A program made the position numbers and the translations under genes. Shown here in pieces: positions 45,146 through 50,004 of a stretch of 64,000 nt of DNA; within the stretch, counting starts at the first letter, position 1; each line of letters starts with the position of its first letter. The notes beneath the pieces were generated by a model that searched no databases, had not been told where the DNA came from, and saw only the letters and a list, made by a program, of their open reading frames with translations. The DNA is from Clostridiales bacterium (lineage in GTDB: Bacteria; Bacillota; Clostridia; Saccharofermentanales; Saccharofermentanaceae), in contig JAGDCV010000047.1 of assembly GCA_017958365.1 (NCBI GenBank), positions 62,001 through 126,000 on the forward strand, read 5' to 3'.

Positions 45146-46120
45146 ATGCCGCTTCTAATAATTCAGGATGATATAACCAGGCTCGAAGTCGATGCCATCG
45201 TTAACGCCGCCAACAGTTCACTGTTAGGCGGCGGTGGCGTTGATGGCGCCATTCACCGCGCAGCAGGTCCGAAGCTTCTTGAGGAGTGCAGGACTTTAAA
45301 CGGATGCGACACGGGAGATGCCAAGATAACTTCGGGTTATGATCTTAAGGCCAAATATGTAATACATACCGTTGGACCCGTCTGGCACGGCGGTTCCATG
45401 GGGGAGAAGGAGCTTCTTACTTCCTGCTATGTGAGAAGCCTTTCCATAGCGAAGGAACGCGGATTAAGTTCAATCGCTTTCCCGATGATATCTGCGGGTG
45501 TTTACGGATATCCGTTTGATCAGGCTCTGGATGTGGCCGTAGACAGCATCGCGAACTTCCTTGATTCCTGTGAGGATGACATGACGGTATATCTTGTTAT
45601 CTTCAGCAGAAGAGACTACAGGGTAGACGGGTCTTTAATGACAGGCGTTCTTGACTATATGAAGTCAAGGTACCCTGATAACCGTGAACGTGTTATGCTT
45701 GCTACTGGCTTCAAGGCCATGAACATGTGCTTGGAATCCGATTCCGCACCTGTTGAGGATTATGTCGATTCCCGTATCGATGAGAGTTTCACGCAGATGC
45801 TCCTTCGCAAGATAGATGAGAAGGGAATGACGGATGTCGAGTGTTATAAGAAAGCTAATGTCGACAGAAAACTGTTCTCGAAGATCAGAAGCAACGTCAA
45901 TTATCATCCAAGGAAACGTACGGCGCTCGGGTTTGCAGTTGCGTTAAAGCTTTCTTTGGAAGAGACGGAAGCTTTGCTCATGAAAGCGGGATATGCGCTT
46001 TCAGATTCTAATAAGGGCGACCTTGTTGTAGAATACTTTATTACGAACGGTATCTGGGATATCAATAAGATAAACGAGGTCCTTTTCGCGATGGACCAGG
46101 AAATAATAGGAGAATACTAG
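45146..46120 (+). CDS. Macro-domain protein with C-terminal helical domain
   Basis: 324 residues. The N-terminal macro domain (about 1-170) is typical: [26 protein letters not shown], then [10 protein letters not shown] and [13 protein letters not shown]. Such domains bind ADP-ribose or hydrolyse O-acetyl-ADP-ribose or ADP-ribosyl-protein. The C-terminal 130 residues are helical and include [20 protein letters not shown] and [21 protein letters not shown], an arrangement like XRE-type helix-turn-helix proteins. It could link ADP-ribose signals to DNA or RNA binding; that is inference. It begins five bases after the CAP-like gene. Confidence 0.87.
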
Positions 46121-47284: not shown

Positions 47285-47383
47285 TCAGGTATCTTCATTT
47301 CGCATCCTAATGCATCGATAAGTGCCGTGCATGCTTCCGCTTTTATCAAGGATGAATACCATCTCTGTAAGATTCTTTCTCAT
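47285..47383 (-). pseudogene. Remnant of a VWA-domain protein gene
   Basis: A minus-strand frame begins at an ATG (47383) eight bases after GGGAGG and reads MRKNLTEMVFILDKSGSM. This is the start of a VWA domain with the MIDAS D-x-S-x-S motif. It then stops after 32 residues. In the next frame a coding-like tail (EACTALIDALGCEMK..., ending at 47245) follows. A full VWA gene would be several hundred bases, so a large internal deletion has joined the two ends. It may still be translated but cannot form a VWA fold. Confidence 0.6.
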
Positions 47384-47440
47384 TGTTTTGTCCTCCCTTA
47401 TGTTTGTTGGCTTATGTATAGGAAATGAAGATGTGCCCGT

Positions 47441-47458
47441 GGTCGCCTTTGAGGCGAC
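47441..47458. repeat. Short hairpin upstream of the MntP-ZIP gene
   Basis: GTCGCC (47442-47447) and GGCGAC (47453-47458) around a 5-base loop, followed by ATTTTAT. It may be a weak terminator on the plus strand or a structural element between divergent units. No yybP-ykoY manganese riboswitch pattern is visible. Confidence 0.5.
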
Positions 47459-47492
47459 ATTTTATCTTCCTTCGGGTGTATAATTAACGGAT

Positions 47493-48854
47493 ATGGGAAT
47501 AGTTGAGTTGGTTTTGCTTGCGATAGGCATGTCCATGGATGTTTTTGCAGTATCTATCTGCAAGGGCATCGAGACAAAGAAGGCCACACTGAAGCAAGTG
47601 ATGATTTGCGGCGTATGGTTTGGGTGTTTCCATTTCATAATGCCGATGACGGGTTATTTCCTGAGTTCTTTCTTCACAGTATTCATCAATAAGGTAGCGC
47701 CGTGGCTGGCATTCGGCCTTCTGGCTTTCTTAGGCGTCAAGATGATAAAGGAAGCTTTCTCTGGGGAAGAGGATGAGACTAAGCCCGGCTTTAACTTCAA
47801 GACTATGTTCCCTCTGGCGGTTGCCACATCCATAGATGCTCTGGCTGTCGGAGTTACGCTCGTTGCTGTTCCCGTACAGGTGATAGATGCCACAAACATA
47901 GTAAATACGGTATTTGGCTGTTTGCTGATCGCGCTGATCACATTCGTATTTGCCTGCATGGGTGTGCGTATCGGCAATTCGTTCGGAACAAGATACCAGG
48001 CCGGTGCCGAGGCTGCCGGCGGTTTTATCCTCATATTCATCGGACTTAAGGTCCTTCTCGAGCATCTCGGCGTCATCGACTTCATGAATAACAGCGATGT
48101 TCTGTTCGGACTTCTCGTGCCGTTTGCGGGATCGATCATCGGCTCCGCACTCGTATTCGTCGTAAAGAAGGAACTTCACGAGAGTATCAAACTTATCTTC
48201 ACGGGCATGGCGGGAGGCATCATGATGGCCTGCTCCATGTGGACTCTTCTGTATCCTGCGATCCTTCAGGGGAAGGTATATACGGCTTCAATAGGCTTTA
48301 TCATCGGTATCGGTTTCCAGTACATTCTTGATAAGGCTATACCACATACACATGTCTTTACCAAGGTCGATGAAGGCCCTGCAAGCAAGATCGGTCATTC
48401 GGGCAGGGTTATGCTCTCTGAGATGATCCACCATGTTCCTGAGGGAATGGCTGTAGGTGTTATTTTCGCCGGGGTGCTTAACGGATCGGGTGATGTTAAG
48501 GTGGCGGCTGCGGCTGCGGTTACGCTCGGCATCGCCATCCAGAATATCCCTGAGGGTGCTTTTGTTTCCTCTCCTTTGTGGTCAGGCGGAGAGGAGAAGG
48601 GCAAGTCCTTCCTCATGGGTGTCATCTCGGGTGTAGTTGAGCCTTTGCTCGGTATCGCGACCATCATCTTCGTTAACGCGCTTCCTGGGACACATTTGTT
48701 TATAATGGCTTTGACGGGTGGCGCCATCACATTCCTGGTGCTTGAGGAAACGATTCCCTCAATGCACACGGGAGACCATTCGGATAAGGGAACGATATCG
48801 TTCGCGGTATTCTTCTGTCTTATGATGATATTAACTTTCGCGGTGGGGGTATGA
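47493..48854 (+). CDS. Fusion of MntP-type manganese exporter and ZIP-type metal transporter
   Basis: 453 residues in a single frame. Residues 1-190 are a complete MntP: SMDVFAVSICKG in helix 1, SIDALAVGVTLV in the second half, about six helices. Residues about 200-453 are a complete GufA-like ZIP: LFGLLVPFAGSIIGSALVF, FTGMAGGIMMACSMWTLLYPAI, HHVPEGMAVGV with the metal-binding His/Glu, and IQNIPEGAF. MntP exports Mn2+; ZIP proteins generally bring divalent metals into the cytoplasm. No ribosome binding site is visible; TATAAT at 47479-47484 ends eight bases before the ATG. Confidence 0.9.
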   Translation: MGIVELVLLAIGMSMDVFAVSICKGIETKKATLKQVMICGVWFGCFHFIMPMTGYFLSSFFTVFINKVAPWLAFGLLAFLGVKMIKEAFSGEEDETKPGFNFKTMFPLAVATSIDALAVGVTLVAVPVQVIDATNIVNTVFGCLLIALITFVFACMGVRIGNSFGTRYQAGAEAAGGFILIFIGLKVLLEHLGVIDFMNNSDVLFGLLVPFAGSIIGSALVFVVKKELHESIKLIFTGMAGGIMMACSMWTLLYPAILQGKVYTASIGFIIGIGFQYILDKAIPHTHVFTKVDEGPASKIGHSGRVMLSEMIHHVPEGMAVGVIFAGVLNGSGDVKVAAAAAVTLGIAIQNIPEGAFVSSPLWSGGEEKGKSFLMGVISGVVEPLLGIATIIFVNALPGTHLFIMALTGGAITFLVLEETIPSMHTGDHSDKGTISFAVFFCLMMILTFAVGV

Positions 48855-48855
48855 C

Positions 48856-50004
48856 ATGACTAACGTTTGCTGCAGTAACTGCTTTAATCCCAAGCGTGAC
48901 ACGTTCCACCGCTATATAAAGCAGAACGGCTATGTTTCCGACGATATGTGTCCTTACTGCAAGAGTACGGACGGCATCAAGATAGAGGCGAAATTGCTCG
49001 GGAAGTTCATAAAGACCGGTATCGACCGCGCCTACGATGTCTGTGATGATGAAGGCGGGGATAAGCTCTCGGTATTCGAGATCCTTAACGACCGGGTTAT
49101 CCTCTTTGAATGGGAGAACCACAAGGAGCGCGAGCTCACTAAGGCTCTGTTTGAAGGGACTTCGGATGAGGACATCGATGCGGGAAGGTACCGCCTTAAG
49201 CTCGAGTCCAAAGGCGACGACGAGGAGCAGTACAGGATATGGCAGAACTTCGAGCACGACTGCAAGTACTTTAACCGCTTCTTTGACCTGACACCGAGAG
49301 GCGAGGGCAACAGCAACAAGCGTACCGAGATGCTCGAAAAGATATACGAGTCCTGCCTTAAGAACCTTAAGGAGGAGATCGAGCCCGGCACTGAGCTTTT
49401 CAGGGCGCGTGTCATTGATTCCAAACTCAAAAGAGGTAGGGACTACAACCTCGACGAGGTCTCGATAGGACCTGCGGACAAGATGAATTCCCAGGCGGGC
49501 CGAATGAATCCCGAGGGCATCAACTACTTCTACGTCGCGGAAGACGAGGCTACGGCCCTTAAAGAGGGACGGCTGAGGGCTAACGAGCGCGTTCTTATAG
49601 GAAGATTCAATACCATAAAGAAGCTAACGGTCATCGACTGGACCAAGGCAAACATATATGAGAAGGCGGTCGATATCTTCTCGCCCAAGTATTCTCCGTC
49701 GATGGCGGTCTACCAGGACTTCCTGAGGCGATTTGCCATTGAGGTCGGAAAGCCCAATGAAACTGCGAAGAATATCGAGTATGTTGCCACGCAGCTTGTT
49801 GCCGAATATGTTAGGGGACACGGCTTTGATGGTATAAAATACGACAGTGCGGTAGGTAACGGGTTTGATGTAGTATTCTTCTACGGCCCGGAAATCGAGA
49901 AAGAAAACAAGGATTTTAATACAATTCCCGATTATACTGATATCGCAAAGCTCACAGATGTGAGAGAATTTAAGATAAAGATCGAGTACTTCCTCGAACC
50001 ATAA
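48856..50004 (+). CDS. RES-domain protein with N-terminal zinc-binding (HEPN/RES-N-like) region
   Basis: 382 residues. Cys5, Cys6 and Cys9 with a later CPYC pair (about residues 32-35) suggest a zinc knuckle. The C-terminal half (about 180-350) has the RES toxin-family landmarks: Arg in TELFRARV, GRMNPEGINYFYVAEDEATALKE-type region with a Glu, and Ser in DGIKYDSA. RES toxins degrade NAD+. Here no Xre/COG5642 antitoxin adjoins it, so it may be controlled within the chain or serve another role. It begins one base after the MntP-ZIP stop, likely the same transcript. Confidence 0.82.
   Translation: MTNVCCSNCFNPKRDTFHRYIKQNGYVSDDMCPYCKSTDGIKIEAKLLGKFIKTGIDRAYDVCDDEGGDKLSVFEILNDRVILFEWENHKERELTKALFEGTSDEDIDAGRYRLKLESKGDDEEQYRIWQNFEHDCKYFNRFFDLTPRGEGNSNKRTEMLEKIYESCLKNLKEEIEPGTELFRARVIDSKLKRGRDYNLDEVSIGPADKMNSQAGRMNPEGINYFYVAEDEATALKEGRLRANERVLIGRFNTIKKLTVIDWTKANIYEKAVDIFSPKYSPSMAVYQDFLRRFAIEVGKPNETAKNIEYVATQLVAEYVRGHGFDGIKYDSAVGNGFDVVFFYGPEIEKENKDFNTIPDYTDIAKLTDVREFKIKIEYFLEP

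Follow-up and report, generated by a model that had tools for sequence, protein, structure and literature searches.

A conserved MntP–ZIP fusion protein with a predicted rewired second metal site in its ZIP half

Results

A single frame encodes an MntP-family domain followed by a ZIP-fold domain

The window, by which we mean the whole 64,000-nucleotide stretch of Clostridiales DNA analyzed here, contains a gene that reads from ATG to TGA with no internal stops and joins an MntP-family domain to a ZIP-fold domain (Table 1). The original prediction, made from the sequence, held that exporter-family and importer-family domains share one uninterrupted frame, and database matches bear this out. Specifically, the MntP half scored 141.6 bits against Pfam PF02659 (cut-off, 24.4; E 2.3e-41), and the ZIP half matched the NCBIfam ZupT model (E 1.3e-21) and, over residues 173 to 452, BbZIP in the PDB (E 1.3e-19). 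The motifs cited in that prediction, SMDVFAVSI, SIDALAVGV, HHVPEG and IQNIPEG, are all present in the product. Against the NCBIfam MntP equivalog NF008546, the MntP half reached 94.7 bits, below the curated cut-off of 214, and it is therefore filed here as an MntP-family domain rather than as MntP proper. The ZIP half scored 17 bits against Pfam Zip PF02535, under the gathering score of 35.1. Three solo ZIPs from relatives exceeded that score with 73 to 88 bits, as did two fused ZIP halves of clade 2 (described below; 44.8 bits for L093 and 39.5 bits for L010). Because the window's ZIP half escapes the Pfam Zip model, such fusions may carry annotation as plain MntP. HHVPEG, which that prediction cited without remark, departs from the usual ZIP motif, HNxPEG. 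The description of this half as a full GufA-like ZIP goes too far, as HNxPEG is lost and the Pfam Zip cut-off that solo relatives pass is missed.

Upstream of the fusion are genes for a CAP/DUF4214 protein and a macro-domain protein and a lipoprotein-like ORF, and a RES-domain gene begins one base past the fusion stop, so that the macro- and RES-domain genes flank the fusion. This neighbor block is common only to close relatives. Since the macro, RES and ZIP coding regions are all missing from the gene list of L161, a locus with a stand-alone MntP, the macro and RES genes may form a unit. The start of a VWA-like gene (MRKNLTEMVFILDKSGSMHG...) breaks off upstream of the fusion on the opposite strand, and at L031, L032 and L035 an uninterrupted 212-residue frame occupies the place where it does so. 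Metal genes adjoin the fusion at 4 of the 38 loci inspected (family scans of neighbors covered few others), and they differ among these loci: feoAB with a FeoC-like gene at L149; FeoB, a DtxR-type regulator and an HMA protein at L038; a P-type ATPase for heavy metals that contains an HMA domain at L156; and a FeoB-associated protein at L150.

A palindrome, GTCGCCTNNNAGGCGAC, overlaps the expected −35 region of the fusion gene and is a possible operator. No Shine-Dalgarno sequence was seen before the fusion ATG in the window's group, and there the mRNA is probably leaderless, as judged from the position of the TATAAT box. A search of Rfam near the fusion and at 16 related loci returned no match over the gathering score, and hence no Mn riboswitch, and none that was believable at a relaxed threshold. 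Riboswitch control was rejected on this result and because, in the window's group, the TATAAT box lies too close to the ATG for a leader to fit. The window also contains a T-box leader at a distance from the fusion gene (Table 1).

Table 1. Positions of the fusion gene, its parts and nearby features in the window
Feature	Coordinates	Strand	Remarks
T-box leader RF00230	25172–25410		106 bits; unrelated to the fusion gene
Macro-domain protein	45146–46120		
Start of VWA-like gene	47290–47400	−	Read from sequence
Palindrome GTCGCCTTTGAGGCGAC, 17 bases	47442–47458	+	Single copy in own genome assembly; recurs upstream of the fusion in relatives
TATAAT box	47479–47484	+	Ends 8 bases before ATG; read from sequence
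MntP–ZIP fusion gene	47493–48854	+	453 aa; 14 predicted transmembrane helices (6+8), N-out/C-out
MntP domain, residues 1–197, six helices	47493–48083	+	PF02659 E 2.3e-41
Asp16 (E. coli MntP D16)	47538–47540	+	Invariant in 40 fused and 32 solo MntPs
Asp115 (E. coli MntP D118)	47835–47837	+	Invariant in 40 fused and 32 solo MntPs
Short junction, residues 192–200	48066–48092	+	Predicted outside the membrane; extra helix absent
ZIP-fold domain, residues 201–453, eight helices	48093–48851	+	BbZIP match E 1.3e-19 and structural match
ZIP TM4 motif E310-M-I-H313-H314-V-P-E317-G318	48420–48446	+	Alignment to BbZIP
ZIP TM5 motif Q350-N351-I-P-E354-G355	48540–48557	+	BbZIP Q207, D208, E211
Glu383 (BbZIP E240, second metal site)	48639–48641	+	Kept here, lost in fusion clade 2
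RES-domain protein	48856–50004		

Both halves are predicted to adopt their usual membrane orientation

An AlphaFold2 model built from 19 fusions was of moderate confidence (mean pLDDT of 76.5 and pTM of 0.80). In the MntP half the model contains helices at residues 3 to 27, 33 to 57, 69 to 88 and 102 to 125, plus a stretch from 135 to 191 that we read as two. Thus, six MntP helices (residues 1 to 197) fit the model and the loop charges, with helices 5 and 6 forming one long stretch in the model. Residues 195 to 452 superimpose on BbZIP (PDB 8ght) with a Z score of 28.6 and an rmsd of 2.1 Å over 245 residues. Overall, the modeled helices are consistent with six plus eight transmembrane segments. 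When compared with known folds, the MntP half aligned only weakly, with half-molecules of MFS proteins (Z of 8 to 10), and the comparison was uninformative.

Lys and Arg residues number 19 in the loops predicted to lie inside and 3 in those predicted to lie outside, and both halves are predicted to be N-out/C-out. ZIPs are N-out/C-out, and the loop pattern of E. coli MntP fits the same arrangement. The two halves could therefore be joined without an extra helix, and neither needs flipping. Indeed, the suggestion in the original prediction that one half changed direction is disfavored as far as flipping is concerned, since membrane flipping of one half was rejected from the charge distribution and the predicted orientation is that of the stand-alone families.

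The fusion is conserved in two bacterial groups and is under purifying selection

The host of the window's fusion is a gut and rumen bacterium. The original prediction proposed a search for the architecture in other genomes and allowed that it might be absent from all relatives; 40 distinct fusions were collected, the window's own included, one of which (L114) stops ∼25 residues early. Of 85 genomes of the window's own genus (presumably Saccharofermentans, the name attached to the relative L048), 21 encode a full-length fusion, as do 11 of the 397 genomes sampled from the family to which Lachnospiraceae bacterium G11 belongs. Contigs of the named strains Lachnospiraceae G11 and AC2028 and Butyrivibrio NC3005 carry the fusion, and material for experiments may thus exist. 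No further fusions were detected in a thin sample of 398 genomes of the phylum, none outside the genus in a similarly thin class-level search of 391 genomes, and no plasmid record contained a full-length fusion. In ten pairs, dN/dS was 0.03 to 0.10 in both halves. Strong purifying selection acts on both halves, and a decaying ZIP half is ruled out by these values.

In the ZIP tree, every fused ZIP falls in a single clade (support 100/99), and none of the solo ZIPs included there is of the fused type. The fused MntPs group into one clade of the MntP tree (100/93), together with the stand-alone proteins L112 and L122; L112 shares the chromosomal position of the window gene. From this placement, L112 and L122 could have lost the ZIP half or could be prefusion relics, support within the clade being weak; they suggest that the MntP half does not depend on its ZIP partner. 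The fusions form two deep clades, which are ∼62 to 84% (clade 1) and 44 to 49% (clade 2) identical to the window's fusion. Because each clade contains members from the window's genus and from the Lachnospiraceae family, the distribution fits horizontal transfer, and the trees fit one old fusion event with transfer between the two groups. Between clades 1 and 2 the ZIP half diverges ∼1.4 times as much as the MntP half. At L009, L011 and L116, the MntP halves are 92 to 100% identical per 60 bases and identity in the ZIP half falls to 63%; these genes have probably undergone within-gene recombination, to judge from this pattern.

The fused ZIP keeps its transport site and has an altered second metal site

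In the MntP half, D16, E87, S116 and D118 (E. coli numbering) are invariant in 40/40 fused and 32/32 solo MntPs. The residues of the ZIP half are considered in BbZIP numbering. In BbZIP, M1 is the transport site and M2 an auxiliary site (PMC11549095, PMC7949119). The M1 residues M99, H177, E181, Q207 and E211, the release residues D144 and E276 and the cytosolic loop histidines H149 and H151 are all kept in 40/40 fused ZIPs; in BbZIP the loop histidines have been proposed to form a built-in cytosolic zinc sensor (PMC10256678).

The second metal site differs. In the window's TM4, E310, H313, H314 and E317 correspond to BbZIP residues 174 (Ile), H177, N178 and E181, respectively. Residue 178 is His in all 40 fused ZIPs and in none of 49 stand-alone ZIPs, such that TM4 reads HHxPEG in 40/40 fusions (HHASEG in L013) and HN in 49/49 solo ZIPs. 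Position 174, at which Ile together with Val215 forms a hydrophobic plug that blocks M2 from the cytosol in BbZIP (PMC11549095), is Glu in 38 of the 40 fusions and lies a single helical turn away from His178. The deepest fused branch of the ZIP tree, L013, has His178 but lacks Glu174, and the His may therefore have come first, although L013 is a long branch of unsure placement. In TM5, IQNxPEG (Q207, N208 and E211) is present in 40/40 fusions, with Gly replaced by Ala in clade 2. All 13 clade-2 fusions have lost E240. Thus, on the evidence of these alignments, the second metal site of the fused ZIP is rewired.

Residues at the outer entry are changed as well. In BbZIP, S106 is a critical residue of this entry (PMC9278863). 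All 49 solo ZIPs have Ser at this position, whereas clade 1 has mostly Thr and sometimes Ala, and clade 2 has Gly (13/13). The entry residue D305 is lost in fused ZIPs. Over 103 positions that are near-invariant in solo ZIPs, an outward bias in the loss of conserved positions was not significant (p of 0.68 and 0.24).

The fusion is the only MntP in most genomes that carry it

A second MntP was absent from all 21 own-genus genomes with the fusion, whereas 47 of the 64 without it encode a stand-alone MntP (Fisher p of 6.6e-10, with genomes treated as unrelated). Among the other fusion genomes, 10 of 13 had no second MntP over the cut-off. A separate ordinary ZIP was found in 10/13 own-genus fusion genomes (the 13-genome subset) and was not found in the window's own genome, the assembly of which is 80% complete. 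Since the fusion is the sole MntP and an ordinary ZIP is usually retained, it stands in for MntP and not for ZIP, and it seems from this gene complement to replace the cell's ordinary Mn exporter.

Discussion

Our analyses point tentatively to a permease with two functions, in which the MntP half would export Mn(II) and the ZIP half would admit another divalent metal with altered selectivity. The MntP half would act as the cell's MntP-type exporter, pushing Mn(II) out. The ZIP half, keeping its ancestral import orientation, would bind and move a divalent metal by way of M1, and its rebuilt second site (His178 with Glu174) would change its metal preference or the release of metal. The metal so admitted alongside Mn(II) export may be Fe(II) or Zn(II), and in this way one polypeptide would shift the ratio between Mn and the other metal. 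This two-function reading draws on the retention of the invariant MntP residues and of the M1, release and sensor residues of the ZIP half, the BbZIP fold, the predicted N-out/C-out orientation of both halves, the low dN/dS, the change of N178 to His, the status of the fusion as sole MntP and the usual presence of a separate ordinary ZIP, and the link to iron on the metal genes (feoAB, FeoB, the P-type ATPase and the FeoB-associated protein) at 4 of 38 fusion loci. Altered S106, with the loss of E240 in clade 2, means that import from outside could be weakened or lost. The stand-alone MntPs L112 and L122 likewise count against this reading, as does the small number and diversity of the loci with metal genes. 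Of the activities first proposed, a differently selective exchanger gains indirect backing from the universal change at the second metal site of the fused ZIP, and a two-way exchanger of one metal found no specific support.

Next in likelihood, though less likely than not, is a regulatory role of the kind raised in the original prediction, in which the ZIP half no longer imports and, as a cytosol-facing metal-binding domain, detects metal or passes it along and gates the adjacent MntP exporter. In favor of such a role, H149, H151 and the M1 residues are invariant in all 40 fusions whereas S106 and D305 at the entry are altered; the replacement of MntP rather than the ordinary ZIP, the greater divergence of the ZIP half between clades, the Glu at plug position 174 near His178 and the cytosolic zinc sensor proposed for the BbZIP loop point the same way. 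This role might take the form of a built-in sensor and gate or a loading dock, in which Glu174 and His178 would open the second site to the cytosol and bound metal would open or feed MntP. We consider that specific form somewhat less likely still. Against a sensing role, the cytosolic release residues D144 and E276 are also kept, as expected of a transporter, and S106 to Thr is a conservative change in most of clade 1. Moreover, as the test for outward loss was negative, it is the metal-site residues only that carry the sensing interpretation.

An improbable alternative is that two independent transporters share one chain and are linked only by being made in equal amounts, the fusion being neutral or driven by expression. 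The matching N-out/C-out topologies, which fit together without an extra helix, and the recombination of the halves as modules in L009, L011 and L116 agree with such a pairing, but the fused ZIPs form one clade with a shared altered metal site and without a free-standing member among the sampled solo ZIPs, which goes beyond what chance linkage would require. Finally, a missed stop or an indel that merged two neighboring genes, which the original prediction had raised and which a fragmented assembly (134 contigs, 80% complete) might invite, is ruled out for all practical purposes by the 40 distinct fusions across many independent genomes, named strains among them, and by dN/dS far under 1 on either side of the junction.

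Transition metals normally enter and leave cells through separate, oppositely regulated proteins. No description of an MntP–ZIP (or DUF204–ZIP) fusion was found in the literature searched, a search that reached few subscription journals, in agreement with the initial impression that no member had been described. The altered ZIP site, present in every fused copy and in no sampled solo copy, constitutes a natural experiment on the role of the second metal site, and a conserved chain with two folds also bears on the way in which cells adjust the ratio between Mn and other metals.

The MntP half resembles MntP (YebN; LysE superfamily, TC 2.A.107, PF02659) in its six-helix 3+3 layout, its conserved D16, E87 and D118, its passing of the Pfam cut-off and its occurrence as one copy per genome in most of the genus. 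Unlike MntP, the known members of which have ∼188 residues (PMC4608589), the window protein is joined to a second transporter fold. The closest solo MntP to the window's, at 62% identity, is that of genome G1271 (L112/L161), which shares the CAP/DUF4214-like and VWA-like genes upstream and sugar ABC genes downstream but lacks the ZIP half, and at which the RES and macro-domain neighbors were not seen. The ZIP half is like GufA/ZupT/ZIP11-type ZIPs and BbZIP (PDB 5tsa and 8ght) in its eight-helix fold, M1, IQNxPEG, the cytosolic His pair, D144 and E276. It differs from them in having HHxPEG in place of HNxPEG and Glu in place of Ile or Val at position 174, in its altered S106 and D305, in the absence of E240 from clade 2 and in its placement behind MntP.
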